Below are positions 6,154 to 52,509 of a stretch of DNA of 64,000 nt, piece after piece. Origin of the DNA: a virus; the IMG/VR virus record IMGVR_UViG_3300005264_000003, positions 1 to 64,000 of that record, one strand, 5' to 3'. Positions within the stretch are counted from its first letter, which is position 1. Every line of letters starts with the position of its first letter. Under the pieces are notes generated by a model. The model searched no databases. It worked only from the letters and a program-made list of their open reading frames with translations, and was not told where the DNA came from. Made by a program: the position numbers and the translations under genes.

Positions 6154-9071
6154 TGAGAATAAATCACCCTAAGTTTAAAAATAAAATTTGTCAAGCCTGC
6201 ATAAAAGCACAAAAGGCTAAGTATGGTAAGTTTGACATGAAGTGTAGTGGCATAACCATTGAAGCTGATGTTAAATTTGCTATGAAGCATGGCAATATGT
6301 CAGAGGAGGATGCTAGGTATATATATGACCCAGTGTTCTTCTTTGAAGCTAGCTTTGGATCTCCTGCGAGAGACTATCAGATCCCTATCTTGCAATGCAC
6401 AAGCAGAAACTTAGTCTCAAGACAGTGTCGGCAGACAGGCAAGACTCTTGCTATTACAAATAAGATCTTACACTACGTAGGCACCAATGACAATGCTACT
6501 GTTCTTATAATAACTCCACAAGAAAAGCAAATTAAAAAGATCTGGGATGAGTACATATTCCGAGATGGTATAGATAAAAACCCTAGATTATCTGTAAAAA
6601 GAAAGCGCGAGAAGCCTTTCTATCAAGTTGAATTCGATAATGGATCTAAAATAATGCTTATGATTGCAGGCCCTGGTGCTCGTGGTCAATGCTTACCTGC
6701 TGGACAGCTAGTAACTATGCATGATGGGTCTCAGAAGGCAATAGAGGAGATAGAGCTAGAGGACATTGTACTTACGTTTGATGATAAAGATAATACTTTA
6801 AAGCCTAATAAAGTGAGAACTCTTCACGGTAATGGCATAAAAGATATCTATGAAATAGTTACCGAAAGCGGAAGAAGGACAAGAGCTACAGGTAATCATC
6901 CATTTTACATTAACGGTGAGTGGAAAGATGCAGATCAGATCAACAAAGATGAGCTAATTGCTATACCTAAGCATGTCCCTTTTGGTAAAAATAAACTGAA
7001 TGACGCCCTAGTAAAGTATATTGGATACATGATTGGAGACGGTACATGCTCTTCTGTTGAGTCTACTCCGTTTAAGTTTACAGTAAACAATAATACGATT
7101 AAAAGTGAGTTTATTAATATTTGTTCATGCCTAGGCATTAAGATTAGCAGCATTCATCAAGACACAAGAAGAGATAATTTATTTAATATTGCCATGTCTG
7201 CAAGAAAAACAGGCACTGCTTATGATGTAATGAATAGCTATAATTTATATGGTAAGAAGTGTGACACCAAGAGTATTCCAGAAGAAATAATGTCTTTAAA
7301 TAAACAGCAACTTGCCTTGTTTATTAACAGGCTATACTCTACGGATGGCTGGATATGCCATAGCCCTGGGCAAAGAACTATTAATACTGAAATTGGATAT
7401 TGCTCTACTTCTAAAAAACTAGTTACTCAACTGCAATATTTATTAAATAAGTTCCAAATCAAATCTAGAATACAAGAAAAGGAAAAATCTCTTAATGGAA
7501 GAGCCTGTAAAAGACAATACATACTTAAAATAAGAGATAAAAAACAGACACTTGACTTTATTGAGCAAATTGGATTCATATTTGGGAAAGAAGAAAAGTC
7601 TAAGGAAGTTTTTGATATAGTCAACAAGGACAGTATAAGAAGTAGAGTATACAGATCTGACATTAATGATATTTACTATGAGAAAGTAAAAAGCGTAAAT
7701 GTAGTTTCTAGTGAAGAAACTTACAACTTAACGATAGAGAATACACATACTTTTATAGTAGATGGTATCATAACTCATAATACTGCTGATTGGATCTATT
7801 TGGATGAAGCAGCAATTATACCAAATGATATGCTTAAAGATATAGTCATGACAATCGCTTCTCGTGGAGATGAAGCTACAATGCTATTGACATCCACGCC
7901 TATGGGTCGTGGTAATGTATTCTATACAGCATGTAAGGAAAACTCTGTATTTAGAGAGTTCCATGTATCTATTGATGACGTACCTAGTATGCATAATATG
8001 ATACCTCAATTTAAGAAGCTATTAGGTGAAACTGGGTATATACAAGAGGCACTAGCTGAATTCCCAGCTACATCAGGCGGTCCATTTAACCTTAATGGAA
8101 TTACTTTAGCTAAGACAGATTATGAGTATGAACATGCTACTAGAAGTGGAGGTATGTTATACTTCGGAGGAGTCGACTGGAACGGACCGGGCATAGGTAC
8201 TTATTTCTATATAGTAGGCTTTGACCCTCAGAGTTATAAGTTTAAGATAGTAGATAAGCAGATAATAGCTTCTGCTAACTGGAATAGTACTGTTGCTAAA
8301 CAGGCTCTTATAGAGTTAAACAGAAAGTGGGAACCGAAGCATTGGATGTGTGATTATGGATACTCTCAATCCTTAATAGAAGAAATTAGACTATATTCAA
8401 TGAAAGTTAATGTCGAAAATGGACATCCAGATACACAACTCAAGCATATAGTAGAAACAGTAGCATTTGGATCACCTATGGAAGTAGAGGATCCATTTAC
8501 TAAAGAAATGACTAAGAAGACAGCTAGATCGTTTATAGTCTCACAGGTTGCAAGATTATTCGAGCCACAAGGTACTACGGGCAAGGAGTGGGTTCCAATA
8601 CAATTCTCATCTCATGATGAGGAGTTAATAAAGTCTCTTGAAGTATATAAGTTGCTATCTATATCAAGAACAGGCCAAGAGCAGTACGGTATAGATTCCA
8701 AGGATGGAGTAGAGGATCATGCAATGGATGCTTTTATTCTAGCTATTTACGGCGTTGTTAAATATTACAATGAGCTGTTTAAGAAGATTATATATTCTTC
8801 AGTTTCATTTAATGCAACAACACTACTTGGTGCAGAAGCAGAAGAAGAGCTAGAAAAGAATGTCGTAGCTGGAGGAATCATCTTATTAACAGATAATAGC
8901 CCAGAGCCAATCTATCTTGACGAAAGAGTAATTAAGGATCCTTCTGAGGCAAAAGAGATAATTATATCAAGAAGCTTTTCTAAAGGAATGACAAAGAGAG
9001 CCTATACAGAAAAAAATCTTTCTGGTATAATGAGAAGTAGACGTGGAATGATTAGAAGAAATAATTTTTAG
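6153..9071 (+). CDS. terL: Terminase large subunit, interrupted by an intein
   Basis: This is the ATP-driven DNA packaging motor and genome-cutting nuclease. Walker A is RQCRQTGKT (residues 90-98). Walker B is WIYLDEA (547-553) and the coupling motif LLTSTP follows. The nuclease half shows its acidic residues in GGVDWN, MCDYGYSQS and EDHAMDAF. Residues 180-543 are an intein, so the spliced protein would be 608 aa, normal for the family. The insertion lies just before Walker B, at Gln179/Thr544. Cys13, Cys16 and Cys31 near the N-terminus add a possible metal site unusual for terminases. The start overlaps the previous stop. Confidence 0.95.
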   Translation: MRINHPKFKNKICQACIKAQKAKYGKFDMKCSGITIEADVKFAMKHGNMSEEDARYIYDPVFFFEASFGSPARDYQIPILQCTSRNLVSRQCRQTGKTLAITNKILHYVGTNDNATVLIITPQEKQIKKIWDEYIFRDGIDKNPRLSVKRKREKPFYQVEFDNGSKIMLMIAGPGARGQCLPAGQLVTMHDGSQKAIEEIELEDIVLTFDDKDNTLKPNKVRTLHGNGIKDIYEIVTESGRRTRATGNHPFYINGEWKDADQINKDELIAIPKHVPFGKNKLNDALVKYIGYMIGDGTCSSVESTPFKFTVNNNTIKSEFINICSCLGIKISSIHQDTRRDNLFNIAMSARKTGTAYDVMNSYNLYGKKCDTKSIPEEIMSLNKQQLALFINRLYSTDGWICHSPGQRTINTEIGYCSTSKKLVTQLQYLLNKFQIKSRIQEKEKSLNGRACKRQYILKIRDKKQTLDFIEQIGFIFGKEEKSKEVFDIVNKDSIRSRVYRSDINDIYYEKVKSVNVVSSEETYNLTIENTHTFIVDGIITHNTADWIYLDEAAIIPNDMLKDIVMTIASRGDEATMLLTSTPMGRGNVFYTACKENSVFREFHVSIDDVPSMHNMIPQFKKLLGETGYIQEALAEFPATSGGPFNLNGITLAKTDYEYEHATRSGGMLYFGGVDWNGPGIGTYFYIVGFDPQSYKFKIVDKQIIASANWNSTVAKQALIELNRKWEPKHWMCDYGYSQSLIEEIRLYSMKVNVENGHPDTQLKHIVETVAFGSPMEVEDPFTKEMTKKTARSFIVSQVARLFEPQGTTGKEWVPIQFSSHDEELIKSLEVYKLLSISRTGQEQYGIDSKDGVEDHAMDAFILAIYGVVKYYNELFKKIIYSSVSFNATTLLGAEAEEELEKNVVAGGIILLTDNSPEPIYLDERVIKDPSEAKEIIISRSFSKGMTKRAYTEKNLSGIMRSRRGMIRRNNF
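6690..7781 (+). other. Intein with LAGLIDADG endonuclease inside terL
   Basis: The 364-residue element begins with Cys (CLPAGQLVTM, block A) and ends with the His-Asn pair of block G (VDGIITHN), followed by Thr as the +1 extein residue. Block B is present as ATGNHPFYI and block F as ETYNLTIENTHTFIVDG. Two LAGLIDADG-type helices, YIGYMIGDGT and RLYSTDGWI, indicate a homing endonuclease domain. All residues needed for canonical Cys-type splicing are visible. The insertion point is a highly conserved ATPase motif, the typical target of homing inteins. Confidence 0.93.
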
Positions 9072-24101: not shown

Positions 24102-26810
24102 ATGTTTAATGTTGCACCCAGATATCTATCCGGTATTTCTGTGTTTCTTGGTGATGATATCACTGAGCGAGAAGTCACTGGAGAGTTAGTTGTCCTAATG
24201 GGTCCAGCTACAAAGGGTCCTTCTAGTGCCGTAACTTTAAGAAGTATTGATAGCTTAGTACCTCTTTTTGGCTCTAATAACCCTCTTGCTAAAGCTGCTC
24301 ACCAATTTTGGGATGGCTATGTTGATGCAGGCGCTACAAACTCACTACAACTCGTAGCAATGCGTATTGGTGGAATTGCAGCAACGCTCGCAAACTCTTT
24401 CGGCGTAGTCATCGAAACAGAAGATGCATATAATGGTATTGAAGACGAATACTATGTTTATATTTGTGACGTAGATGCAGAATCCTTTAACGTTAAGGTA
24501 TGGGACAAAGACAGACTGCTTGTTTTTGACTACCTAAATGCAATTGATACAAGATATGTCAAGGTAACCGTGCCTGATATAACTGGCACTACTGGTAAGC
24601 TTTATGGTACTGATATTGATAATGATCCTTTGAATCCTGGCTTAACACTCGCTGAGCTAACAAACAAAGATCAAGTTGCACCTGGTGGCTTATTTTATGG
24701 TACTACTGGTGCAGGCCCTGTTCCTGGTGCAAGTAGCATTGTCTTAAGTGATGAGCATGGCTCGCAAGATTCATTTGCATCCTTTGCTGACCTATTCCCA
24801 TCTACGGGCAAGGTAAGAATTTCAGGTAAGATTGGTGCCGTTAAATACGAAGAGTTTATTAGCTATTCAGAATATGACTCTGAAACTAATACCTTTACTT
24901 TATCTGCCGAGACTACTGTGGATTTCTCTGGTGTAGCTGCTACTGATATGAGAGTAGAGTATATTGGCTCAACTTTAATAAAAGGTGATTCTGAGTTAGA
25001 CCTAACTGATCGTCAGCTTTATGAGAAGATGCGCAATATGCTTCTAGAAGTTGAAACTTGGACTCCTGATTATATTGTTACTGGTGGCGGATATTTTGAT
25101 GCTAAAGGAACTTACGTATCAGGTAAGACTGCTGTAACAGTACCTACAACTGCACAGGTTGCTGGTCCAGAAACTGCAGACACAGCGCTTTCATTAGCAT
25201 TCGTTGAGGCTGAGGCAGCTGCTACATGGGCAGACTCAGGTACCGCTAAGCTAGATAGTGGACTAGAGCTAGACCTTGGTGATGGCAATGGCCTTACTGG
25301 AGTTAGTCAGTATATTCGATACTCAGGCATTACAACCGTTGATGACGGACAATCGGATACAGACTATAGACTCAATGTAACATTTGATCAATTTGAAGTT
25401 AGTGCAAATTACGTAGGGGATTCTCAAGTTCTTTATGTTAAGCAAAAAGCAAGTGGACCTGCAATCGATAAGTTGATGCCAGAGGGATGGTTCCGTATCT
25501 CTAAGGCAGGACAAACACTAGCTGGATACTATAAGCTAGCATCTGTTACTGATGGAGTTGCTAAGCTTGCAATTCACGTACCTGCTAATCAAGCAGCAGA
25601 AATAAGTGTCCATGTGTCTGGTGCAGCTGAATTTGATGCCGATGGAGATGGAGCACTGCCGATAGCTACTGACACATTTGAGCTTTGCTGGATGCCTTTT
25701 GGTACTAATGACACTTACCTACATGGCTACTGGACTGAGATTGAAAGCTATGAGACTGGCATTGGCTACGTTAAAGAGACCGATCAAGGTGACTGCTATA
25801 CTTTTGAGTGGAGCGATGAGCCTCAGATTGGATATGGATTAGCTCATTTCGGCTATCTTATTGCGAACTTCTGTAATGAAGCGACTATTGGTTACAATAC
25901 GCCACTTACAGGAATGAACATGACTCCGCCTACTGCATTTGACAGAGCGTCAGTTATTCAATGGATTGGATCTAAGGCCGCATACAAGATGGTTGCTGGA
26001 GAGCCTACCGCTATTGAAGCTGTATCTGCATCCGGTACAGGTCTTCTTGGCAATGCCATTATGGCAGGTTCGGAGAGATTTAATCGTACATACTTAAATG
26101 ACACAGCAAATAACAAGTTTGTTGATCCAGCATATGGTCTTCTTATGACTAATGATGGATTTGTTGATGGCTCAGAGACAAGAGATACTTACGGTAACGT
26201 AGTTGATCTTGGTAAGTTTATGTGTGTTGGTGCAGGACTGCTAACATTTGTAAATGCCGCTTCTGGTACTCCTTATACTGAAACATGTGGCTTGTATTCA
26301 ATTGGTATGCTAGCTGGTAGCCCAAAAGAGCAAGGTATTTCATTTAAGCAAATTGGTAAAAATTCTGGCACTACAATTAGTGTCATTGTTAATAGAAAAT
26401 TATATAATGACCTAGTTAACCTTGGCTATATTGTAATTACTAGAGAAAAAGGCCTTGGATGGGTTATCAATAACGATCACTCTGTTGCAAGAAAAGATAG
26501 CGGATATCGCTTAATTTCTACTACAAGAATTGTTAAAACTGTTATTGAGGCTAAGCGTCAAGAGCTTGTAAGTTTTATTGGCAAGCCTATTAATACATTC
26601 TACTACGAGGCAGCTAAGACTAAAATGGCTGACTCCTTCAAGAATGACGTTTCACTAGGTCTGCTTAATGGCTATAACTTCAACCTCGAAGCTTCTAAGG
26701 CTGGTCAGGCTATTGGTAAGCTCTACTTAAGAGTAGTTCTTAATCCGCCACTTGAATTAACTCAAGTAGACATTGATACTGTTATTGACCGCAACGTAAC
26801 AACTAGCTAA
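24102..26810 (+). CDS. Contractile tail sheath protein
   Basis: The sheath surrounds the tube and contracts to drive it into the host. Typical features are the N-terminal GELVVLMGPATKGPSS with a following fixed-spacing PLAKAAHQFWDGYVDAGA, and the C-terminal signature of sheath proteins: ISVIVNRKLYNDLVNLG, STTRIVKTVIEAKRQEL, NTFYYEAAKTKMADSFKNDV, and a final strand. At 902 aa it is larger than T4 gp18 (659 aa); the extra length is mainly a beta-rich insert at about residues 150-500 that should form outward domains. Codon use is of the highly expressed type. A UUCG hairpin separates it from the tube gene. Confidence 0.93.
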   Translation: MFNVAPRYLSGISVFLGDDITEREVTGELVVLMGPATKGPSSAVTLRSIDSLVPLFGSNNPLAKAAHQFWDGYVDAGATNSLQLVAMRIGGIAATLANSFGVVIETEDAYNGIEDEYYVYICDVDAESFNVKVWDKDRLLVFDYLNAIDTRYVKVTVPDITGTTGKLYGTDIDNDPLNPGLTLAELTNKDQVAPGGLFYGTTGAGPVPGASSIVLSDEHGSQDSFASFADLFPSTGKVRISGKIGAVKYEEFISYSEYDSETNTFTLSAETTVDFSGVAATDMRVEYIGSTLIKGDSELDLTDRQLYEKMRNMLLEVETWTPDYIVTGGGYFDAKGTYVSGKTAVTVPTTAQVAGPETADTALSLAFVEAEAAATWADSGTAKLDSGLELDLGDGNGLTGVSQYIRYSGITTVDDGQSDTDYRLNVTFDQFEVSANYVGDSQVLYVKQKASGPAIDKLMPEGWFRISKAGQTLAGYYKLASVTDGVAKLAIHVPANQAAEISVHVSGAAEFDADGDGALPIATDTFELCWMPFGTNDTYLHGYWTEIESYETGIGYVKETDQGDCYTFEWSDEPQIGYGLAHFGYLIANFCNEATIGYNTPLTGMNMTPPTAFDRASVIQWIGSKAAYKMVAGEPTAIEAVSASGTGLLGNAIMAGSERFNRTYLNDTANNKFVDPAYGLLMTNDGFVDGSETRDTYGNVVDLGKFMCVGAGLLTFVNAASGTPYTETCGLYSIGMLAGSPKEQGISFKQIGKNSGTTISVIVNRKLYNDLVNLGYIVITREKGLGWVINNDHSVARKDSGYRLISTTRIVKTVIEAKRQELVSFIGKPINTFYYEAAKTKMADSFKNDVSLGLLNGYNFNLEASKAGQAIGKLYLRVVLNPPLELTQVDIDTVIDRNVTTS

Positions 26811-30854: not shown

Positions 30855-31429
30855 TGTCAAAATATAAAATCTCTACCAGTGATTACACGATAGTATTTAA
30901 CTCTATAAGTGCAGAGGATGCAGACAGGTATCACAGAATAATAAAGCAGACAGATAGCGCAGAGGCTGAAGAGATGTTATTCTTGTCAATAGTGGAAGAT
31001 AAGAGCATTGACATAGAGTCACTCAATGCTGGCGTTATACCAACAGTGCTGTATTGCGCATTTCATATATCTGGATTTATAACTATAGATGAGTCTGTTC
31101 CAGACAACATAGAGAAGGCTAGAACTAGAATAGCAAGTAGCCTTTATCATTCCTTACTGTATCCAGCTATAATAAAGACTCAGCCAGGGTATACATTAGA
31201 TATGCTGCGGAGCAAAAGCTTAAATGACTTAATGGAACTATTCGCTTTAAGCGAGATAATCCTAGGCAAAGACATTGTCAATATCGAAGAAATGAGAAAA
31301 ACTATTGCTGAAAGTAAACAAAATAAAGTTTCTCCATCTGCTGGCGGAATTGCCGGAGTAACATCAGAAGAGCTTGACTTAGTTAAGTCAATGATTGAAG
31401 CGGAAGAATTTAATAGCGAGATATTCTAA
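30854..31429 (+). CDS. Tail assembly chaperone-like protein 2
   Basis: Starts on the last base of the previous stop and ends TAATG into the giant gene, so the three are translationally chained. The 191-aa product is acidic and helical, with an N-terminal beta-alpha pattern and a C-terminal disordered GAGG-type linker before a last acidic helix. No enzyme motif is present. Role inferred from order: solubilising the tape-measure protein while the tube polymerises. Confidence 0.5.
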   Translation: MSKYKISTSDYTIVFNSISAEDADRYHRIIKQTDSAEAEEMLFLSIVEDKSIDIESLNAGVIPTVLYCAFHISGFITIDESVPDNIEKARTRIASSLYHSLLYPAIIKTQPGYTLDMLRSKSLNDLMELFALSEIILGKDIVNIEEMRKTIAESKQNKVSPSAGGIAGVTSEELDLVKSMIEAEEFNSEIF

Positions 31430-34400
31430 TGAGCAGTAAGCCAATAAATCCTATAACATTTTCGGTAGATATAGAGGCTAATAATCTCCCCACTGACTTT
31501 CATATAGTGAGAGGCCTTGGGGAGCCCTTTAGGCTTCCTGACCTAAGCAAGATGGTGGATGGATTTGCAAACGTAGATATATATCAAATTGGATACATGG
31601 CCAATGGTGAAAAGAAGCATGTTGACGTAACTGAAACTACGTTTAAGCATCCCGAGGTCTCTACGCCATTAAAGTATTCAGAAGAATATATAGACGCTGC
31701 TGGCAAGACGCGTTCGTTTAAGAGAGCTACTACAGTTACAGCATCAAGAGAAAGCTATGAGTCTCTATTCAAGTCTAGTGTAAATAAGATGAATGCTGCA
31801 TCTACCGAGCAATATAGGAAAAAAGTACTGCCCTACTACTTACTGCAGGCTAGGAAGAATACTCAGTTCATGCTAGATAACGGTGGATCAATTGGTGCAA
31901 TGCCTTTTGATGTATTCATAAAGCCATATGAAGAAATAAGAAGAATAGCTGAATCTCCTGAGAATGGGTTTAAGTATAGTCAAGTTACGCAAGCTAACTT
32001 TAGAGGTAAAGGTACAGACTCTCTCTATGAAGCAATAGATAATCTTGTCAGCTCAGCTAGCTCTAAGGATGCACCAGCTGTATTTAGATCATGGAACCCA
32101 GCATATGATGCGCCAGTTATACTGGCAGCACTACAGAAGTCGGGGCATACTGCTCTGGCAGACAAGTTTATTGCACAGCATAAGTCTGGACTATTAAAAA
32201 TACAAGGCATAGAAGATGAGTGGCATGAAGTTTTATGGAAGTTAACTAAAGAGAATCCTGATATAGCAGATGATATAAGAGTAGGAATGCACCCAATAGC
32301 AGCAATTGCTACGGGTCGGCCTGGTGGCAAAGTAACTACGTATGGAGAATTTAAGTACTCTACATATAGCTGGAAGCAAGAGGACATAGCTAAGCTTTTC
32401 AGGGGACATAAGAATTTTAGAGACATAGGCCATATAGCATCAACAGATATATTACAATCAGAAGAGCTTGCTAGTTTTATGCAGGCAGTAAAAGAAAGAG
32501 CTAGGAAAACTCTTGGACTTAAAGAGGCTACAGAAGCATTAAATCTAGAAGATACAGGCAATGCATTTACAGATGCCTTTAATGCTGAGATAGCTAAGAC
32601 CTTTGGTGATAATGGCGCTACGACAGCAAGGGGAATGCTAAGAGAAGCAACTATAGATTCAAAGAGGAAGAATAAATTCTTTAGACAAAACTTTGGATCA
32701 TGGTTTGCTGCTGACACATCTAAAAGAGCAAGAGCAAGCTGGACAAAATATCCTGGAGTTATAGGAGCAGCAATTGCAGTAGCAGGAGCAACATATTTAG
32801 CTAATAGTGAAACGAAGACAAGTCTAGGCAGCGGTTTTTCAAGTATCAATGGAGTTCCTATAGGCAAAGGCATTGGGTCAGGAATAGACAAGGACAGTCC
32901 TAATCTTGGCGCTAATATGGTTGGCGCTATGGCATCAGGCATTGTTGTGCCTGGAATAACAATGGCAGCTATTGGATACGGAGCAGCGCAAAGACATCCT
33001 ATGCTGGGATATTCTCCATCTAAGCCTGAGACCTTTACGCAGGCCTGGAATCAAATTAAGAGTACGATAAGATATGGCATCAAGACTACAGAGGGTCAAG
33101 TATCTTTAGCTCGCGTATTCGAACTAGGAAGCTTAACAGATTATTTTTCTAGCAGTAGAACTTACTTGGCTGGAAAAGGCAAGAGTGGTAATTTGCCTAA
33201 CGGAAAGCCTGGCAGGTACTATAAGTTTAATGTTATACAGACAAAGAATGGCATAACAAGAGTACTTGATCAGAAATCACCAGGCCACGGCATGGACATG
33301 ACTAAATTTATGCATGTACTCAAGCGGGATAATATATCTCAATATAAAAAACTAGACAGTATTCTTAATCCAAACATTAAAGATATGGCGCCTGAAAAGA
33401 GGCCTTACACAAGGCAAATAAGAATAGCATCCACAGTTGGCGGTGGAACAAGAGTGCAGTGGGACGACTATGCCACTGAAAGCTTCGGCAAGGAAAACAG
33501 AATAACGAATTATTTATTAATAGATAAACATATAGGCATAAATAAACTACGGGACGTAATACCGCAAGCTGCCAATCTGCATACTAGGCAGACTGATAAA
33601 AATAATTTGCGCAGCACGAATACAGCAGCCAGGGAAGCTGTTCATAGGGATATGTATAGATATGGCGGGTTTGCAAAAGATGAATACGAAGATTACATGG
33701 GCAGGCTTGTTAAGCCTGGATTTGCCAGAAGAAGCGAGCTTGGTAACACTGCGTGGCGCGGAGCCGAGAAGTTAAGATGGATGTTAGATCTGAACTCGAA
33801 GAGTGTTGGTGAGGCTAACAATTTACTTATACCTAATGTAGCTGAGACGCTTAATAGCACGAAGGCTGTAGTGCTAGTAAAGGATGCTAGATACTATGCT
33901 GATGTAATACCAAACTGGCTCATTGGTAGCATGGATAGATTCCTTGAAACTCCATTTGAGTTCTTAGGAGTTGAGCATGGTAAAATAGAAGGGCTTGCTA
34001 ATAAATTGAAAGCATCCCCCAACTTTACAACTAATACATTCGGTAAGGCATTATCTGCTATAGAGAAGCCTCACTTCGGATTAGGACTTGCAGCAAATGG
34101 TGGGTCTGCTTCTAGGTATCTGATGTCATTTGGACTCAAGAGAGTACTGCCTGCATACCTAGCTATAAACATGTTCTCGCTTACTGATCACTTACTAGGT
34201 GCAGCTACTATGTCTCCTACTGGAAGAGGACCTCTTACATCTGTTCCCATAAAAGCATATGAGACAGCATCCTTGCTATATACTAAGATGTCCGATATTG
34301 TAGGGCTAACTGATTATGCAAAATGGCAAGCAGATGTTGCTCCTGGATCTACGGGTATCGGAATATTCGCTCCCGCTGCGACAATGACTGCAACTTATTT

Positions 34401-37284
34401 TATGGGTGAGGTAGCATATAAGCATGGGCCAGATTTTATTGGCGGAGCAATAGACAAGGCTGCAAAGAAAGCAATTGAGCATCCATTCTTACAGAAAGCA
34501 CTTAGAAAGGAATCATTTACTGGTGCAGTTTCTAGGGGGCCAGTGGAAAGGTTCATGTCTTATGCTATTAAGAATCCTAAAAAGGCTTTGTTTGGATTAG
34601 CAATGTTGCCTGCAATACCTTTTGTTCCAGGATTCCTCGGATCAGATAAAAACTATATGGAAAAAAAGGCTGAATACGATGGCGAAAAAGATGTTGCCAT
34701 TAGAAAGTATCGTGGATGGCTATTATCTTCATCTCCATTTGAGGGCGGTAGAGTTAGATCGTTTCGTAGGCATGCTTTAAATTTGGTTGAGAGCGACTTT
34801 GAGAACAGAGGGGTAGTCTATCCTTCTTTCGCAGAAAGATTTGCTCACAGCGCAACCCTAGGCCTCTACAAGCCTAATATGCTAGAGGAGTACCACAAGG
34901 AATCGCAGCCAGTATATAAATCTGCTCCATTCGGAGCAAACATTCCATTACTTGGTCCTTTGATAGCCGGTACGTTGGGTCAAATAATTGGACAAAAAAC
35001 ATATCACGTTCCAGGAGAAACAGCAGGAGAGGGCGATGGAGTTGGATATGATATGGGCATCGGACTAGAGCAGTCATTAAGTGATGGCGAGTCAAGAGCT
35101 ATGATTGCTGGTGATGGTAGTACTGGATATATAATGGGCCTAGAAGATCCTGCATCTTTAAACTCTATGGCTTCAAGATTTGCTGACACACTTTCTGATT
35201 TATCCGGTTTCCGTGGCTTTACAACAAAGACACTTTACAGTCGAGGATCAGGAAAGTCGCTGCCAGATGATTACACACCATATGCGCAAGATGCAAGTCA
35301 AATGTATAGTCCCGCAGAGCAAATGTGGCAATACAATCTTGGTGACATAACAGTAGTTGGTGGTGAGTTTTTACGTCGTGTATTACAAAATTCTGAGAAG
35401 AAGTGGCAAGTTAATGATATACCGAACGAGTTAATGGGAGTAAGCTGGATACCGCAGAGTGATAATTATGGTAAAGACTTAACTCATGGCACCACTTTCG
35501 ACAAGGTAGACATGGGTTGGCTTTACGGAGCTAGAAAAGGCTGGGAATTTTTATACCCAGGAGAAGCTAATGGAGAAATGGAAACATATGGGGCTCCAGT
35601 AAGAACAGAAATATTGTCTCATATAGCACCTTACTCTAGACAGTATAAACAAGAAGCAAAAAAGACATTAGACATGGCTCTTGACGATAGAATAGATCCA
35701 AGAAGAGAGCAGAGATTCTATGAGACTCTAGAACAAGTTTCTCAAGTTAAAGAACAGTTATATGCTACGGCAGGAGAATATACACATACAATAGATACAG
35801 AAAGTAGATCTGGTGTAGTGCAGTCAATGGATGAGTCAACTGGGTCATTTATGATTAATAATACGCAGTATAGGCTGGCTGGGGTATCTACAAATGAGGC
35901 TGATATAAGATCAAGGCTATTGCAAAAAAAAGAATTTGAGAATGCTAGACAACTAAGCGCTGAAGTGCAGAGAGTTCAGCTTCAAACAGCAGAGATAATG
36001 AGAAGCAATCTAGCTCCAGGCACGCATATAGACATGGACGTTGCTACAGCAGCAATGCTACCTAGTGCTACTAACCTGGGATATGAAGCGAGAATCAGCG
36101 GACTTTCAGAAAAGATGCTTGAGGCTGGTGCTGCTTTTGCTGATACCGGTAACATAGCAACACATAACATGGCGCAAGATAGACATGGTATGTTTAGTAA
36201 GCTACTAGCTTCGCATTGGGAAGGAATGACGTCAGTTAACTCGTATTGGAATAAGAAGCTTATATCTCAAAGAGACTATCTTGATAACTATACCACTAAT
36301 CAAGTATTTAACCGAGAAGTAAAGCTTTGGACTAGGCCTATCGATCACATACTAAAGCCGTTTATTGCATCAACTATGCATAATTGGTTCGGGCTAGATG
36401 CGATACCTTCATTTACTAAGCAGCGCAGAGCTACTCAGCAGTATTGGGATATATTAAAGTATATAAAATACAAAACACTATCTACTAAATCTAGGGCTGA
36501 CGGAGATCTTGATTCAGCTACTTACTATGAAACTCAATGGAGAAGCACTATGGTAGGTGCTGATCCAACCAATGAAAGCAAGAGAGACGAACTAATGGCT
36601 CTTCCTGGAAATGAGAGACAGTATTTTAATTACTTCTCAGCTGAATCAGATCCAGATAAAAGATCTGAAATATTTAAGTATTTACCAGAGCCAGCTAAGA
36701 GAATATATTCAAGCATATGGCTAAAGAAGATGGCAGAGACGTCGAGTAACCAAGAAGTTCAAGCAGCTTGGGCAGGACTAAAATCATCTGAAGGCTGGAG
36801 TCTTTCAGAGGAAGAGGAAGCTGACTATATAAATGAAACTAATGGCAATGTATCTAAGGGCGACTGGGCTAGAGCAAGATTTGTACAGCAATATGCTAGA
36901 GAAAATGATCTTCCTGGACCTGAGTGGTCAGGCTGGAACTCAAATGTAGATATAGATAACACACAACTGCTTTCATTAATGGAAGATGGAGAGAATGCGC
37001 AAGACTATGGATTTTTTGATAGTAAGATACGTAAAGCTCTATATGACGATGATGCATATAAGGCAGCAACCGATATAGATTCGGCTAGTACCACTGCCAG
37101 CGTATTAATGGGAAGCGCACTTCCCTATTTAATGGAAGATAGCATGTCTTTATCTTACGCCGTGCCTGTAAGTATGTCTAGTCCTACTATTGAAATGAAT
37201 ATAGAGACTAATGGATTCAATAAAATATTAATGAGAATGAATGACTTAGGGTCATCACTACTTCCTGATGAATTCCTAGATTAA
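31429..37284 (+). CDS. 1951-aa giant tail protein (tape-measure position) with N-terminal DEDDh-exonuclease-like domain
   Basis: The position after two chaperones is that of the tape measure, which sets tail length and is ejected with DNA. Unusually, residues 1-345 carry the motifs of DEDDh 3'-5' exonucleases in order: FSVDIEANNL (D14, E16), then IYQIGYMANGE, SWNPAYDAPVILAAL (D227) and HIASTD (H335, D340). All catalytic residues are present, with a large insert between the first and second. Later come Gly/Ala-rich hydrophobic segments (about residues 445-525 and 920-1110, including IPFVPGFLG), then a long helical half. An enzyme-tipped, membrane-active ejected protein is my inference. The start overlaps the previous stop. 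Confidence 0.7.
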   Translation: MSSKPINPITFSVDIEANNLPTDFHIVRGLGEPFRLPDLSKMVDGFANVDIYQIGYMANGEKKHVDVTETTFKHPEVSTPLKYSEEYIDAAGKTRSFKRATTVTASRESYESLFKSSVNKMNAASTEQYRKKVLPYYLLQARKNTQFMLDNGGSIGAMPFDVFIKPYEEIRRIAESPENGFKYSQVTQANFRGKGTDSLYEAIDNLVSSASSKDAPAVFRSWNPAYDAPVILAALQKSGHTALADKFIAQHKSGLLKIQGIEDEWHEVLWKLTKENPDIADDIRVGMHPIAAIATGRPGGKVTTYGEFKYSTYSWKQEDIAKLFRGHKNFRDIGHIASTDILQSEELASFMQAVKERARKTLGLKEATEALNLEDTGNAFTDAFNAEIAKTFGDNGATTARGMLREATIDSKRKNKFFRQNFGSWFAADTSKRARASWTKYPGVIGAAIAVAGATYLANSETKTSLGSGFSSINGVPIGKGIGSGIDKDSPNLGANMVGAMASGIVVPGITMAAIGYGAAQRHPMLGYSPSKPETFTQAWNQIKSTIRYGIKTTEGQVSLARVFELGSLTDYFSSSRTYLAGKGKSGNLPNGKPGRYYKFNVIQTKNGITRVLDQKSPGHGMDMTKFMHVLKRDNISQYKKLDSILNPNIKDMAPEKRPYTRQIRIASTVGGGTRVQWDDYATESFGKENRITNYLLIDKHIGINKLRDVIPQAANLHTRQTDKNNLRSTNTAAREAVHRDMYRYGGFAKDEYEDYMGRLVKPGFARRSELGNTAWRGAEKLRWMLDLNSKSVGEANNLLIPNVAETLNSTKAVVLVKDARYYADVIPNWLIGSMDRFLETPFEFLGVEHGKIEGLANKLKASPNFTTNTFGKALSAIEKPHFGLGLAANGGSASRYLMSFGLKRVLPAYLAINMFSLTDHLLGAATMSPTGRGPLTSVPIKAYETASLLYTKMSDIVGLTDYAKWQADVAPGSTGIGIFAPAATMTATYFMGEVAYKHGPDFIGGAIDKAAKKAIEHPFLQKALRKESFTGAVSRGPVERFMSYAIKNPKKALFGLAMLPAIPFVPGFLGSDKNYMEKKAEYDGEKDVAIRKYRGWLLSSSPFEGGRVRSFRRHALNLVESDFENRGVVYPSFAERFAHSATLGLYKPNMLEEYHKESQPVYKSAPFGANIPLLGPLIAGTLGQIIGQKTYHVPGETAGEGDGVGYDMGIGLEQSLSDGESRAMIAGDGSTGYIMGLEDPASLNSMASRFADTLSDLSGFRGFTTKTLYSRGSGKSLPDDYTPYAQDASQMYSPAEQMWQYNLGDITVVGGEFLRRVLQNSEKKWQVNDIPNELMGVSWIPQSDNYGKDLTHGTTFDKVDMGWLYGARKGWEFLYPGEANGEMETYGAPVRTEILSHIAPYSRQYKQEAKKTLDMALDDRIDPRREQRFYETLEQVSQVKEQLYATAGEYTHTIDTESRSGVVQSMDESTGSFMINNTQYRLAGVSTNEADIRSRLLQKKEFENARQLSAEVQRVQLQTAEIMRSNLAPGTHIDMDVATAAMLPSATNLGYEARISGLSEKMLEAGAAFADTGNIATHNMAQDRHGMFSKLLASHWEGMTSVNSYWNKKLISQRDYLDNYTTNQVFNREVKLWTRPIDHILKPFIASTMHNWFGLDAIPSFTKQRRATQQYWDILKYIKYKTLSTKSRADGDLDSATYYETQWRSTMVGADPTNESKRDELMALPGNERQYFNYFSAESDPDKRSEIFKYLPEPAKRIYSSIWLKKMAETSSNQEVQAAWAGLKSSEGWSLSEEEEADYINETNGNVSKGDWARARFVQQYARENDLPGPEWSGWNSNVDIDNTQLLSLMEDGENAQDYGFFDSKIRKALYDDDAYKAATDIDSASTTASVLMGSALPYLMEDSMSLSYAVPVSMSSPTIEMNIETNGFNKILMRMNDLGSSLLPDEFLD

Positions 37285-37294
37285 CGGAGAGCAT

Positions 37295-40200
37295 ATGTCA
37301 TACAACAATCCATACGATAAAGAAGACGGAATACTTGGTACTATTGTGAAAGGCACTGCTCTTACTGGTGCAGGCGTAGTGGCAGTTAATGCTTATAGAA
37401 ATCCAGAAGCTACAAGACGTAAGTTTGGTCAAGCAATGGACATGATTGCTCCAATTAAGAGCCCTAAGCTTAATCCTTATCAGCAGAGACTAGCAAGAGC
37501 GAATGAGATTCTATTTAGCACAGTAGCAGAAAGAGATGCTAGAATTAAATCAAAAGATAAAATTAGAGCAGCAGAAGCCATGCAGATGACTGGGTCTAAA
37601 AGCTCATGGTCTGCAATAACGCCTGTTGCACTACCAATTGGAGCTGACAGTAAGCAGAAAGTATTGAATGAGATTTCAGCTCAAGTTAGCGAGTATTCAT
37701 TTGAGAAGCTAGATGACATTCGCGATATAGACAATAGGCCCATTGGAAACAAAATACATAAACAGCTTAAAAAGAAGTTTCCAGGACAGATAACAAATGC
37801 TCCTAAGTTTAAAGGTACGAGAGCTACATGGAGGATAGGAGGCGAGGATCTAGAGATAGATTTCTCTAAACGCATAGGACAAACTGAAGGCTTCATGAAG
37901 CGCATAGGTGAGTCAATGTATGTAGCTCCATGGAGAGCAGACCTTCAAAGCGTCGATGGGAAACTAGGGTATCAGTTATCTGATCCCAACACTGATATAT
38001 TAAGCTTCCTAAGCGATATGAATGATGAAAATGGAAATGGTAGATTATTCTGGGGAGTAAATGAGAATAGCGAGGTAAGAAGTAAGTTTGAGAAATTAAC
38101 AGGCAGTGGAATGGATAGTAAAAGGGCTATGGCTAAGCTTAGATCTGAAGCAGAGAAGTATTCATTGAGAGAGTTAGATGTAGTCAGGAACTTGCAGGAA
38201 GCAATTAAAAGAGAAACAAGAACTGATACGCAAATAGCCGATAATGATATTATAGGAAGAAATATGCACGCCTCGAAGGTGCAAGTAAATGAGCACAGCG
38301 CATATCTTGTTGGGCAAATGCCTGCTCATAGAGGAGTTGGGTCCAGAGCTCTTGGTACTGGTGCCATTAATAGTGATGTAATTGACGGCAAGAACGTGCA
38401 AGAGTTATACGATATACATACAAATTCAACAATGGATAACAATCTAATAACAATATCTACTAGCGGCAATACTAGTAAAAGAATAAGAGAGATGGCTATA
38501 AAGCATGGAGGCTATGTAGATAGCCAAAGCACAGTTGCTGAACTTGGTTGGAGCATGAGAGTAGGATCTACAGCTGCATATGCTGAAAGAGAGAAAAGCT
38601 TTAAAGGAATAATGTTTGAAAGCCATAAGCTTGCCAAGACTCCGTTTAGTGGCGTAGGAGGCACGAAGATAGATAGTGATGCATTGGCTAGGATTAGACA
38701 CAACTTCTTTATTAATGATGATGGTGCAGATAGTGATTTCAAGTATAGTTCTCATGTACAAAGCAAGGCTATTGTACAAAAAAATAAGGGCGTTTATAAT
38801 ATGGCTCTTGCTTTAAGTCCATTTGAATCTGAAGCAATAATGATAGGAGACGCAACTAGCGAGAACATGAAGACACTTGCTCCAAAGACAACTAGTGTAG
38901 CAGCAATGGCCATCAAGAAAGGCGATAAGGCATATGAAAAATCTTTCGTTGAAATGAAGTATTTCGATGTGGATTCTAATTCTCAGAAATCATTCACAAA
39001 TCTTACGCTTCAAGACATAATGGAAGATTCACACAAAAGCAATATTATGACTCAAGGATTTGGTGAGATACACATAAAGAGAGGTACGATATTAGGCAAA
39101 AAGCCAGTTGGTCAAGAATTACTCAATGATGGCACTGTAAATGATATAATTGCTAGAGAAAGCGGAATTATAAAAACACAAGTCAACAGGCTGATTGGTA
39201 GAGATGATTATATATCTACATTAGCATCACATAACAGAATGATTGTTGATGGTCATAAGCTAGCAGGAGGAGTTAAGATTGTATCACAAGTGCATGAGGA
39301 TGCAGTTAAGATGGCACTTAGCAATGTAACTACACGTAACACGACTAACTTTAGAGACAATGAATTAGTAAATGAATTGACTCAAAATGCAGGGCTTGGT
39401 AAAGCAGAAGGTACTATGTCACTGGACTTTCTTAAAAAAACACTTCCTAAAAAGGGTCCAAATAACAGAGTAGTGCTTGGTAAGGGTTCTTCTGAGTTAA
39501 TGCAAGTTTTACAGTCTGCGATTGGGTGGCAGGCTCTGCAAGGTGATCATGATGTAAAATTAAAAGGTAAGGCGGCACAGCAGTTCTCTAAGTATATTAA
39601 TAATGGTAACACTCATTTAATTAATGGAGAGTTAAACTTATCAAAGATCATGAAGAAAGGTAACTTATCTTTCAAGCAAATGATACATGATAAGAAGTTA
39701 TTCGCAGACCAGTATGAGCACACAATTGAAACACTTGGCCTAATAAGAGAAGGGTTTGGCAATGGAGATGCTCAAACTATTATTCAGCCAATGAGAGGAA
39801 GTGTAGACATAGGCTTTTCATCAAAAGGAGCTAAGTCTGCAGCCACAACAATAGACACTCACATAAGGCAACTTGAAATACTTGGAGAAAGAGCAAAGAG
39901 TGGCACAAATGCAAGGAAGCTTCTTGCAAAACAAATAACAATTGGTGAGATAGCGAAGACAGTTACAGCTAATGCCAGGGAATTAGCAATGGGTGTAATT
40001 GGTGGTGTAATGCCTCAAGAGCAAGCATGGAATTCTATAGGTAAAGAGTTTAGTGAAATGAAATTATCTTCTAAGGCAATTTTTAATTTTTTAGATAATC
40101 CAGAAATACTTAGAGACCTAGGCGTCAACAGTACTACTCCTGCTATTAAAATGAGCAACGAGTTAAGACTTATGGAAAGTGGAGCCAGGGGCCATAATAT

Positions 40201-42685
40201 TAATGGAGCACTAAAAGCCTACGGTGACAGCTTTGGGCATATACCTCACCTTAAGGATCCAGGTGATATACTTAAAATGCTAGGTGGTGTGAATGCATAT
40301 GATGACATAACTTTAAAGAGGCCAGAGGTTGCTCTTAATACATTCTTAAATTCTGGGCACAGCTTTGAAGACTCCAAGGGTAATATTATAAATAACAGGC
40401 ATGGGTTTACAATAGAGGCTGACGGAAAGAAATTATACATACCAAGTGGAGATGTATGGTCTGGGTATGTTACTGAAGATGGGTCTACTACGTTTGATAG
40501 TATGTTTCTTAAGACTCAGAAAATGCTAAGAGGCTTAACGGTACGAGATGGGGAGCCTGGAGATATTGAGGGATGGACTAAGTCATTATTTGGAGAACTA
40601 GGCAACTCAAAAGAAGGACTAAGAGGACAGGCAACATTAAAGGTAGATGGATCTTCATATGTTAAGGTTGCACAAGATTATAGATTATTACAGAACGATG
40701 TATTAGGTGGAGCAATTGATTCATGGGATACAGATGCTAGCTCAAAAGAAATTAGATATGCAGCATCAGAACTAAAGCACTTACTTGGCAACAGCTCTGC
40801 TATGTCAGCTGACGACTTCGATAGTCAAATTAAGCAAATGCTTAGTGAGACATTTGAGCAATCTCAAGATAACTCTACGTTAAAAAGATCAATGAATGAA
40901 ATACTTGTCGCTCAGTATGGAGAAGGACATTTCTTGGCTAAGTATGAAAGTAAGATTAACTCCATAAAAGCTAAGGAAGATATAATACCGCTAGTAGAAA
41001 AAATTACCTCTGATCAAGTAAAACTTAGTGATAAAATAGCTGATATGTATGAAGAGTTTGGCAAGACAGGCAATGCTAGTCTCTATAATGATATAATGAG
41101 CGAGTCTAGAAATATGCATCAGTCTTATAGCATCAGATACCCGCATATACTACAGGGCTCTCATTCACAAACACCTACATTTATAAGCAAAGCAATAAGA
41201 CGTGGTACAGTAGCGCTTGGTAATATAGACTTAGTTAACAAGAATGGTGACCATGATGGTGATGCAAATTTTGTGAAAGGAATATACAGTAGGGCTACGA
41301 GAAATAAGACGTTTGAAATGATAGATGTGCAGCAAAGAGAAGCATTTAAGCACATGAGCCTTAGAATTCAAGGTGTAATGGCCGACATATTTCAAGGAGG
41401 CGTTGACGCTAAAGGTCCTGCGCTTGCAGCTTCAATAGATGGAGCAAGCTCAGTAGCGGAAACGATACTAAAGACAAACCCAATGGCTACATCAGTTGCC
41501 TCATTTATGACAAAAGCTGTTACTGGTGGCTTTAATGTTGGAGCTCTACAGACAAAAGGTTACCTTGGCATGATACAAGAGAGCTTAGGCTTATCAGAGG
41601 ATCATATAGCTTCAATGAATTCATATTTTAGCAATATGATTTCAATGACAACAGAGCAGAAGATAATTGGATCAAAGCAAATGGAAACAGTTATAGGTGA
41701 CTTTCAAGGCTTACCAGATGAAAATAAAATGAAAGGCATACTAGGCATGCTTAATCAAGATGATTATATGGAAAAGTCCCTCCAGGATATAAGATCTACC
41801 GGTAAAGTTAATCCATTAATTGGCACATGGGCATCAGATGCAGCTAGGCATAACAATCCAAAGGAAATAAGAGAAGTTGCACAGGCAGTCCTTAATTTTG
41901 CTGATATGGAAAACGGATGGCAAGAGTTTGGAGAGGCAGATTTCAGGTCTACCATGAACATTATAGGACACAAAGAAGATGTTATAGATACAATGTGGGA
42001 TCAGTATATAGAAACCATGGCAGTAGAGAGGCAGAATCTTGCCTCTAACAGTGAAGCTATGAGGGCTGCAGGATTGCAAGATAAGCAGCTATTTGAAATA
42101 TGGGGAGACGCATTGCGCAGCAAGGACCTATCTGCATCTGAGAATATCAGCTTTATCTTAAGTAAAAAGAACTCTCCAGGCGAAGCGCTTGCAGCACTTG
42201 ATCTTAATCGTCAAATGTCAATAGCAGGTAACATGCTTAATCTTCCAGAAATGAGCAACACGCTACCTCAGAAAGGAAGAAGGATAATAGGGTATGATAA
42301 GTTACAGGATGGCATATCATGGATGATGGATCCAGTACACGGCGGAGGGCCTGTTAGGATGGCTGGAGTTGCTGGTATTGGACTGGTATCAATGACTGCG
42401 CTAAATGTCTTGTCTGGTGATGGCACACTGGAAGATCCAGGCGATTTACCTAGCGTCAACAATCCATCCTTTACATCTAATAGAGGCAGTGGTAATATGT
42501 CCATGAGTACACTTTCATCTAATGTTGGGCTAAACTCTAATATAAACTTATTAACAGATAATACAATGAGTCCAACAAGTGCTATTGGTATGATGCAAGG
42601 TATGCTTGGGTACCAAGGCAACACAATATCTGTTAGACATGACGGTGAAGATCCTTATAAGCAAGACCTTATGTATTATAAATAG
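37295..42685 (+). CDS. 1796-aa giant protein, candidate virion RNA polymerase (DxDGD motif)
   Basis: GGAGAG precedes the ATG. Residues 1319-1323 are DHDGD inside NKNGDHDGDANFVKG. This matches the metal-binding DxDGD loop of double-psi beta-barrel polymerases, closest to the GSDLDGDxYFV form of QDE-1/YonO-type enzymes. Upstream, RYPHILQGSH (about 1286-1295) matches the RNPxLHPGD segment that precedes the loop in that family. Downstream a Gly-containing helix region (TKAVTGGFNVG, about 1405) could belong to the active-site support. Residues 12-33 and 1707-1726 are hydrophobic. Known crAss-like phages carry a giant virion polymerase of this class. The rest of the chain is unrecognised. Confidence 0.6.
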   Translation: MSYNNPYDKEDGILGTIVKGTALTGAGVVAVNAYRNPEATRRKFGQAMDMIAPIKSPKLNPYQQRLARANEILFSTVAERDARIKSKDKIRAAEAMQMTGSKSSWSAITPVALPIGADSKQKVLNEISAQVSEYSFEKLDDIRDIDNRPIGNKIHKQLKKKFPGQITNAPKFKGTRATWRIGGEDLEIDFSKRIGQTEGFMKRIGESMYVAPWRADLQSVDGKLGYQLSDPNTDILSFLSDMNDENGNGRLFWGVNENSEVRSKFEKLTGSGMDSKRAMAKLRSEAEKYSLRELDVVRNLQEAIKRETRTDTQIADNDIIGRNMHASKVQVNEHSAYLVGQMPAHRGVGSRALGTGAINSDVIDGKNVQELYDIHTNSTMDNNLITISTSGNTSKRIREMAIKHGGYVDSQSTVAELGWSMRVGSTAAYAEREKSFKGIMFESHKLAKTPFSGVGGTKIDSDALARIRHNFFINDDGADSDFKYSSHVQSKAIVQKNKGVYNMALALSPFESEAIMIGDATSENMKTLAPKTTSVAAMAIKKGDKAYEKSFVEMKYFDVDSNSQKSFTNLTLQDIMEDSHKSNIMTQGFGEIHIKRGTILGKKPVGQELLNDGTVNDIIARESGIIKTQVNRLIGRDDYISTLASHNRMIVDGHKLAGGVKIVSQVHEDAVKMALSNVTTRNTTNFRDNELVNELTQNAGLGKAEGTMSLDFLKKTLPKKGPNNRVVLGKGSSELMQVLQSAIGWQALQGDHDVKLKGKAAQQFSKYINNGNTHLINGELNLSKIMKKGNLSFKQMIHDKKLFADQYEHTIETLGLIREGFGNGDAQTIIQPMRGSVDIGFSSKGAKSAATTIDTHIRQLEILGERAKSGTNARKLLAKQITIGEIAKTVTANARELAMGVIGGVMPQEQAWNSIGKEFSEMKLSSKAIFNFLDNPEILRDLGVNSTTPAIKMSNELRLMESGARGHNINGALKAYGDSFGHIPHLKDPGDILKMLGGVNAYDDITLKRPEVALNTFLNSGHSFEDSKGNIINNRHGFTIEADGKKLYIPSGDVWSGYVTEDGSTTFDSMFLKTQKMLRGLTVRDGEPGDIEGWTKSLFGELGNSKEGLRGQATLKVDGSSYVKVAQDYRLLQNDVLGGAIDSWDTDASSKEIRYAASELKHLLGNSSAMSADDFDSQIKQMLSETFEQSQDNSTLKRSMNEILVAQYGEGHFLAKYESKINSIKAKEDIIPLVEKITSDQVKLSDKIADMYEEFGKTGNASLYNDIMSESRNMHQSYSIRYPHILQGSHSQTPTFISKAIRRGTVALGNIDLVNKNGDHDGDANFVKGIYSRATRNKTFEMIDVQQREAFKHMSLRIQGVMADIFQGGVDAKGPALAASIDGASSVAETILKTNPMATSVASFMTKAVTGGFNVGALQTKGYLGMIQESLGLSEDHIASMNSYFSNMISMTTEQKIIGSKQMETVIGDFQGLPDENKMKGILGMLNQDDYMEKSLQDIRSTGKVNPLIGTWASDAARHNNPKEIREVAQAVLNFADMENGWQEFGEADFRSTMNIIGHKEDVIDTMWDQYIETMAVERQNLASNSEAMRAAGLQDKQLFEIWGDALRSKDLSASENISFILSKKNSPGEALAALDLNRQMSIAGNMLNLPEMSNTLPQKGRRIIGYDKLQDGISWMMDPVHGGGPVRMAGVAGIGLVSMTALNVLSGDGTLEDPGDLPSVNNPSFTSNRGSGNMSMSTLSSNVGLNSNINLLTDNTMSPTSAIGMMQGMLGYQGNTISVRHDGEDPYKQDLMYYK

Positions 42686-51294: not shown

Positions 51295-52509
51295 ATGGCT
51301 ACCTACAGAGATAAGTTAGAGAGAATACTGCAGTCCATGCAAGAAAGAACAGGGATGACAAACTTACTTCCTGGGTCCAAGGCATATCAGTTAGCTGAAT
51401 CTTACGCATATGAGCAAATGCTTCAAGAAGCCAAACAGGAAGATTGGACTAGTAGCAACAGTATATCTGAAGCTAAAGGCGAGAAGCTTGATGCTATATC
51501 TAAAGGGTTTTTTAAGATTCCTAGGCTAGAAGCTGTGAGGTCATATGCGTCCAGCTCAATGAAGGCTCTTAAGTTCTATACTGATGATGGATATACGTTC
51601 GGGTCCATCAATACAGATGAATCATCTAACGTTACTATGCAGCAAGACATCATTATAAACGAAGGAACTACGATAAGCGGAATAAGGGATGGCTTAATTT
51701 ACAAGTTTAGAGTTATAGAAGATACAGTACTTGAAAAGAGTAGTAAGGAAGCATACGTAAATGCTGAGTTAATTCAAGGTGCTTCAGATAATATTCCAGC
51801 TAATATCTTAAAAATTCATAACTTTACAAATTATTCACAATCAGTTAATGGCTTACTTAAAGTTACCAATCCTGTTCCAGTAAACAGCGGTAGGCCCAGA
51901 GAGCTAGATGAAAACTACAGGTTTAGACTTGCTAACTCAATGAGAGCATTTCCAAAGACAACATCAGTAGCTATACATCAGCAAGTTACAAGTATGCCTG
52001 GAGTGTCAGACGTATACATAGAGACAGCTGCGAATGGCGGAGGTACTTTTACTGTTTACGTACAAGGCACTACTCCAATAACAAGCAATGACTTAATAGA
52101 GGATGTTAACTTGTCATTATCTCAAGTCATTAATCCTTGGCAGGTCACTTACACTGTTACAAAGCCGCGTTATCTTGGAATATCTGCATCTTTAAATTTA
52201 GTATTTAAGGATGGTTTTAACCTGGCAGCATCTGAAATAGCAGTTAACTCAATCATAAATTACTTAAATAACTTTAATGGTCAAGTGTTTTATGTTAATT
52301 CAATTCTTAGCATAGCGCAGGGTGTACATTCAGACATACTTGATGTATCATTTAATTATGTAAGATTACATGTTGGATCTGAAGATATTCGATCCTATGA
52401 AGAGTTTAATTTAACAGAAGACCCTAACCCTACAATAGTACTGGAAGTTAAAGAGAAGCTAATTTCAGAGCCTATAACAAGTGCTATCATAGCTGTACCG
52501 GTGGTGTAA
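51295..52509 (+). CDS. Baseplate J-like protein (T4 gp6/Mu gp47 type)
   Basis: This is a wedge core subunit. The family hallmark is the sequence VTNPVPVNSGRPRELDENYR followed by a helix, MPGVSDVYIETAANGGGTF and a strand-rich domain, all present at about residues 190-260. The N-terminal 90 residues are helical, with the GEKLDAISKGFF turn. Length 404 aa is typical. TTGGAG precedes the ATG. The neighbours (gp25-like before, large wedge protein after) agree. Confidence 0.88.
   Translation: MATYRDKLERILQSMQERTGMTNLLPGSKAYQLAESYAYEQMLQEAKQEDWTSSNSISEAKGEKLDAISKGFFKIPRLEAVRSYASSSMKALKFYTDDGYTFGSINTDESSNVTMQQDIIINEGTTISGIRDGLIYKFRVIEDTVLEKSSKEAYVNAELIQGASDNIPANILKIHNFTNYSQSVNGLLKVTNPVPVNSGRPRELDENYRFRLANSMRAFPKTTSVAIHQQVTSMPGVSDVYIETAANGGGTFTVYVQGTTPITSNDLIEDVNLSLSQVINPWQVTYTVTKPRYLGISASLNLVFKDGFNLAASEIAVNSIINYLNNFNGQVFYVNSILSIAQGVHSDILDVSFNYVRLHVGSEDIRSYEEFNLTEDPNPTIVLEVKEKLISEPITSAIIAVPVV

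Follow-up and report, generated by a model that had tools for sequence, protein, structure and literature searches.

A putative two-barrel RNA polymerase family among the giant tail genes of contractile-tailed phages, at the position termed tape measure in phage 0305phi8-36

We examined a 64,000-nucleotide stretch, here called the window, of an 87,348-base linear virus record (IMG/VR record IMGVR_UViG_3300005264_000003, positions 1 to 64,000), which carries the structural module of a contractile-tailed phage, with genes for the terminase, the portal, the major head protein, the tail sheath and the baseplate wedge. An ORF that opens with ATG and encodes 1796 amino acids lies between a 1951-aa giant gene and a 2452-aa hub/endolysin-like gene (Table 1). 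An earlier note on this DNA, made from the sequence alone, had placed this ORF in the tail cluster, and the positions of the tail sheath and the baseplate wedge bear this out. Judged by its neighbour genes, the phage belongs to the 0305phi8-36/ME3 lineage of contractile-tailed phages. The 87-kb record holds mainly structural genes, and no early region was recognised in it. When the ORFs in the remaining 23 kb of the record were read for DxDxD as a sign of a second RNA polymerase, nothing like DxDGD was seen. A search of the whole 87,348-base record with the family profile gave no match, and as it also missed the 1796-aa gene itself it is uninformative. Elsewhere in the module, the 2452-aa hub protein has an endonuclease-like stretch (phrog_452) at residues 50–137, and in the 972-aa terminase (6153–9071) the best terminase match falls in the C-terminal half, with further PHROG matches, one of them annotated as helicase, at about residues 172–457; an intein or a fused domain is possible in this terminase.

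Table 1 Features of the 1796-aa gene and its neighbours (positions in the window)
Feature	Position	Strand	Basis
Tail sheath (contractile tail)	24102..26810	+	phrog_16991, 5e-17
Upstream giant protein, 1951 aa, synteny anchor	31429..37284	+	tblastn to Moorella phage MTATph1 and Acinetobacter phage ME3; family search
Proposed single-chain two-barrel virion RNA polymerase, 1796 aa	37295..42685	+	ORF; syntenic homologues with conserved DxDxD
Tentative DPBB-B (beta-like barrel), ~residues 588–700; candidate basic residues K672, R681	39056..39394	+	Weak HHalign/profile placement
Predicted DPBB-A (beta'-like catalytic barrel), ~residues 1240–1345	41012..41329	+	Clade C profile alignment; same profile matches PDB RNA polymerase beta'
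R-Y-P (R1281–P1283), counterpart of the RNA polymerase beta' RxP segment	41135..41143	+	R 24/26, P 26/26 aligned
Predicted catalytic metal loop DHDGD (D1319, D1321, D1323)	41249..41263	+	Three Asp in 26/26 aligned; DxDxD in 50/63 homologues
EQKIIGSK (residues 1454–1461), fits family consensus LEQKxISSKHG, 3' of DPBB-A	41654..41677	+	Window-free profile
C-terminal hydrophobic segment, ~residues 1684–1706; clade C relatives have one too	42344..42412	+	Sequence reading, clade alignment
Downstream giant baseplate hub/endolysin-like protein, 2452 aa	42696..50054	+	phrog_20474, 1e-30; matches hub proteins of ME3, KLEB27-3 and MTATph1
Baseplate wedge	51295-52509		phrog_6, 2e-29

The 1796-aa protein contains the two motifs that the earlier note had read, and in the same order: RYPHILQGSH at residues 1281–1290, and then NKNGDHDGDANFVKG at residues 1315–1329. 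The latter holds the aspartate triad, and R1281 sits 38 residues N-terminal of the first aspartate. DxDGD by itself is not rare, being present in 865 of 20,000 shuffles of the 1796-aa protein (~4%), whereas RxP followed by DxDGD at 25–50 residues was present in 21 of 20,000 (~0.1%). When 1089 other ORFs (526,404 aa) on the contigs of related phages were examined, just 2 had the same combination, and one of these 2 is gp034 of Bacillus phage KLEB27-3, a member of the family described below.

Direct searches with the window protein returned little. It had no match in Pfam, a single match in PHROGs (E 0.5), and nothing by tblastn of phage genomes or by IMG/VR peptide patterns. Pairwise BLASTP against the counterparts in ME3 and KLEB27-3 aligned nothing over the motif, BLASTP and phmmer against the collected relatives gave no convincing similarity to any of them, and a scan with the upstream 1951-aa protein alone brought up no close relative of the window protein. 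The weak matches that were seen cluster on the motif diagonal, with residues 1279–1372 aligned to four relatives (L082, L060, L086 and L092), and the window sequence is an outlier within its family.

The family was gathered by synteny, with the conserved upstream giant as the anchor and the next downstream gene taken from each locus. Profiles of the C-terminus of the upstream giant led to 15, and then to 80, IMG/VR loci and to two genome contigs. The resulting next-gene set comprised 69 proteins, 63 of which were non-redundant at 60% identity, and the proteins are so divergent that BLAST breaks them into many clusters. In dozens of divergent phages the gene comes directly after the conserved giant tail gene, and at the loci that were checked it precedes the baseplate hub gene. 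ME3 and KLEB27-3 are isolated members of the family. In L102 (DUOT01000172.1) this gene pair, with DMDGD in place, is on a contig whose bin is assigned to an Acholeplasmataceae bacterium, so that Acholeplasmataceae may be infected by such a phage or may carry one in integrated form.

A DxDxD motif was present 370–680 residues from the C-terminus in 50 of the 63 non-redundant homologues, compared with 3.5 on average, and 9 at most, in 200 rounds of shuffling; the loop of the window protein, 478 residues from its C-terminus, is within this range. In three of the 13 misses (L042, L069 and L077) the motif is closer to the end of the available stretch, which was apparently cut by contig ends, one (L041) has a core-profile match of 28.7 bits in a gene further downstream, and L071 has DxDxD solely at another place. 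The motif is absent from this gene in L011, L012, L028, L051, L078, L090, L098 and the Moorella phage (CDS0027). Since several relatives keep the gene without DxDxD, the gene has a role beyond catalysis; the triad-less relatives, the Moorella phage CDS0027 among them, show from their sequences that catalysis can be dispensable and that the protein would have a non-catalytic role too. The earlier note had made its reading depend on homologues that keep the three aspartates, and besides the 50 of 63 these are kept in every sequence of a 26-sequence alignment made of the window and its nearest clade (clade C), from which two triad-less members were left out. The P of RxP is likewise invariant there, while, of the 26 sequences, 24 have the R and 22 have the G of DxDGD. 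Outside clade C, the fourth position of DxDxD varies (G, D, A, L, Q, K or F) and the aspartates are kept.

To identify the relatives, all PDB sequences were searched with a clade C profile from which the window sequence had been left out. The search gave four matches in all, each of them an RNA polymerase beta' chain aligned on RxP...DxDGD, with the phiKZ nvRNAP being the best (E 8.8e-4) and the bacterial beta' and AR9-type phage beta' chains following at 0.5–0.7 (AR9-type 0.65). Among 20 clade C members, five matched Pfam RNA_pol_Rpb1_2 (best 4.3e-4; those that were scored singly fell under the curated cut-off) and two matched phrog_2987, 'RNA polymerase beta subunit' (best 8e-7). In most clade C members, the candidate basic residues of DPBB-B take the form K-x6-8-[KR]-x-T. 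An AF2 model of one relative (L018, 1170 aa; pLDDT 76, pTM 0.71) was compared with the PDB by Foldseek, and all 50 matches listed were catalytic subunits of cellular RNA polymerases (best 7.7e-7), with 559 matches at E ≤ 1e-3 overall. The TM-scores are low (~0.14 of the query), since just ~250–350 residues align. Against viral structures (BFVD), the same model matched a protein of an uncultured siphophage labelled 'minor tail protein' (3e-17), an 802-residue piece of an uncharacterized ME3 protein (7e-12), which by its length may be half of the 1603-aa gp36, and also giant-virus RNA polymerases. The predicted model thus shows an RNA polymerase beta'/Rpb1-like fold in this relative.

This fold stands for the relative and not for the window chain, because the AlphaFold model of the window protein (pLDDT 39.5) is unusable; the model was shallow, as no close relative of the window protein was found. 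For the window chain itself, the window-free clade profile aligns its RYP, its DHDGD and the downstream EQKIIGSK. The DPBB-A core profile scored 12.0 bits on the window, against 8.7 for the best of 2000 shuffles, and two unrelated natural upstream proteins likewise reached 12.0 bits, so that the core-profile score is weak by itself. When the clade C profile was aligned to the window protein with HHalign, the E-value was 0.0015 over the length and the first barrel was weakly placed at about residues 590–690; the best site for the DPBB-B profile was in the same region, at a score below zero. By motif, position and synteny, a predicted beta'-type catalytic loop can be regarded as established in the window protein, and a complete two-barrel fold is predicted and very likely in its chain. 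Thus, where the earlier note had claimed a double-psi beta-barrel (DPBB) polymerase signature of the QDE-1/YonO/crAss type, the polymerase part was supported, as both the clade profile and the model of the relative are RNA polymerase beta'-like, and the assignment to those families was not, as described next.

QDE-1 and YonO (PF05183) share the single-chain two-barrel architecture and the DxDGD loop proposed for the window protein. Neither of them is known as a virion protein. Membership in their family was rejected, since PF05183 had no match at E ≤ 1 for the window protein or for 20 relatives. The closest precedent is Thermus phage P23-45, where the tape measure carries a virion RNA polymerase that transcribes the pre-early genes and that was found through a DxDxD search (PMC10770324, Chaban et al. 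2024). Its gp96, like the protein proposed here, combines a giant tail protein with a single-chain two-barrel RNA polymerase that has a DxDGD loop, and it was missed by sequence search; it was proposed to transcribe the first genes during DNA entry (PMC10770324), and by analogy the same role may be proposed for the window protein. However, gp96 is a 5,002-aa tape measure with the polymerase near its N-terminus (DFDGD at 779–783), whereas the window protein is from a contractile-tailed phage, has 1796 aa and carries its loop 478 residues from the C-terminus. A place in the gp96 subfamily was rejected (core profile −1.8 bits), as no sequence similarity was detected beyond the motif. The virion RNA polymerase of the crAss-like phage phi14:2 (published as gp66; AGO48955.1) is also a giant single-chain two-barrel enzyme encoded beside other giant structural genes, but its loop is DFDID and its phage is a crAss-like phage of Cellulophaga; this subfamily was rejected too, with 1.0 bit for the clade C core profile. 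The multisubunit RNA polymerases of the phiKZ/AR9 jumbo phages gave the clade C profile its best PDB matches. They consist of several polypeptides and their virion form is packaged in the head, whereas in the family described here both barrels seem to be in one tail-cluster chain.

The positional counterparts of the gene, between the same two giant tail genes, are orf146 of 0305phi8-36, gp36 of ME3 and gp034 of KLEB27-3, which are annotated as tape measure, as hypothetical or virion structural protein, and as structural protein, respectively; none is called an RNA polymerase. At the corresponding place, gp36 contains GGDHDQDQAAVL and gp034 contains NRYPT...ADYDGDFLS. The flanking gp35 and gp37 of ME3 are annotated as homologues of 0305phi8-36 YP_001429636 and YP_001429638, and gp36 therefore corresponds in position to orf146. 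That the window gene is a counterpart of orf146 we infer from the ME3 annotation notes and PMC2147016 rather than from the orf146 sequence. The name tape measure was given to orf146 mainly because its length fits the tail (PMC2147016), and the position in the window fits orf146, with the upstream 1951-aa protein being an equally good candidate for the tape measure. A probable two-barrel RNA polymerase family is hidden among the tail genes at this position.

A survey of jumbo phages assigns RNA polymerases solely to the phiKZ group and to the YonO-like enzymes of 0305phi8-36 (orf99) and c-st (PMC7824862), and a 2026 review of jumbo phages has no mention of 0305, ME3 or the tape measure. No paper that names the contractile-tailed family as RNA polymerase was found in a search outside which most subscription journals and preprints lay, so that an earlier description is possible. 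Within the literature searched, the two-barrel type of RNA polymerase and the idea of a tail-borne one are known already, and this family in contractile-tailed phages is new.

Most of the clade C giants start with a DEDDh-exonuclease-like domain in their N-terminal ~480 aa (L014, L018, L038 and others), which is an extra domain of KLEB27-3 gp034 (L004:7206-14510) as well. In 17 sequences its DxE, N..D and HxAxxD are invariant, and RNase_T was matched at 0.015 in L038. In most clade C members, exonuclease-like and RNA polymerase-like domains thus seem, by their sequences, to be joined in one tail protein. In the window, the N-terminus of the upstream giant (31429–32500) reads as DEDDh-exonuclease-like, with DIEANN at 14, SWNPAYDAP at 221 and HIASTD at 335, as if the exonuclease had moved to the neighbouring gene; no profile confirmed this reading. 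MTATph1 CDS0027 (L002:22226-26155), L090, L078, L098, L051 and L101, the last cut short by its contig, match the exonuclease-domain profile and have no DxDxD triad, and in these counterparts the polymerase active site was apparently lost.

Taken together, these findings make it likely that a single-chain RNA polymerase of the two-barrel (double-psi beta-barrel) type, carried in the virion and transcribing the earliest genes, is built into the giant tail protein. Within the particle the polymerase would probably lie in the tail tube, as a tape-measure-like protein or as ejected cargo, and upon tail contraction it would enter the cell with the first DNA. There, with D1319, D1321 and D1323 binding the catalytic Mg2+, it would transcribe the earliest phage genes before, or independently of, the host RNA polymerase. 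Packaging and early transcription are suggested by the gene position and by analogy with P23-45 gp96 and the crAss-like phages. For packaging, support comes from the constant tail-cluster position, by the database labels of KLEB27-3 gp034 ('structural protein') and of ME3 gp36 (in one record, 'virion structural protein'), and by the P23-45 precedent.

The protein could instead be a tape measure or an ejected structural protein, in which the polymerase domain is a relic whose fold is kept for structure with no useful catalysis. The gene does stand where 0305phi8-36 orf146 was assigned as the tape measure (PMC2147016), some relatives retain it without the aspartate triad, and the window sequence is the outlier of its family. 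However, the triad, the Gly of DxDGD and the RxP and EQKxIxSK segments are all intact in the window, whereas in a relic one would expect such features to be lost, as is seen in the triad-less relatives; thus we hold this to be unlikely. It is considerably less probable that a working two-barrel polymerase is made during infection for middle or late transcription, and that the place of its gene in the tail cluster has no bearing on its function. Use of non-virion RNA polymerases is possible in this lineage, since 0305phi8-36 has the separate YonO-like orf99 with its own monocistronic transcript (PMC2147016, PMC7824862), but in dozens of divergent phages the gene described here comes right after the same tail gene, and database records name its counterparts in KLEB27-3 and ME3 as structural proteins. 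Finally, it is hardly credible that the motif arose by chance in a giant tail protein that is unrelated to the polymerase-bearing relatives and orthologous to them in position only: the lack of convincing BLASTP or phmmer similarity and the frequency of DxDGD alone among the shuffles speak for it, but the weak matches fall on the motif diagonal, the motif lies at the family distance from the C-terminus, and RxP with DxDGD at such spacing has a shuffling probability of ~0.001.

Returning to the virion polymerase, phages of this family are likely to package an RNA polymerase of their own and to begin transcription of their genes with no need for the host enzyme. A wider picture, to which we give an even chance, is that in an ancient and large lineage of the 0305phi8-36/ME3 type a virion RNA polymerase is part of the tape-measure or ejection apparatus, is threaded down the contractile tail tube and transcribes the arriving DNA, is fused to an exonuclease in one large clade, and forms a class separate from the head-packaged phiKZ type. 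Should these giant tail proteins prove to be virion RNA polymerases, dependence on host transcription has been wrongly assumed for many phages. Polymerase evolution studies would then gain a very divergent set of two-barrel enzymes, and the carriage and ejection of a polymerase through a contractile tail would become testable.
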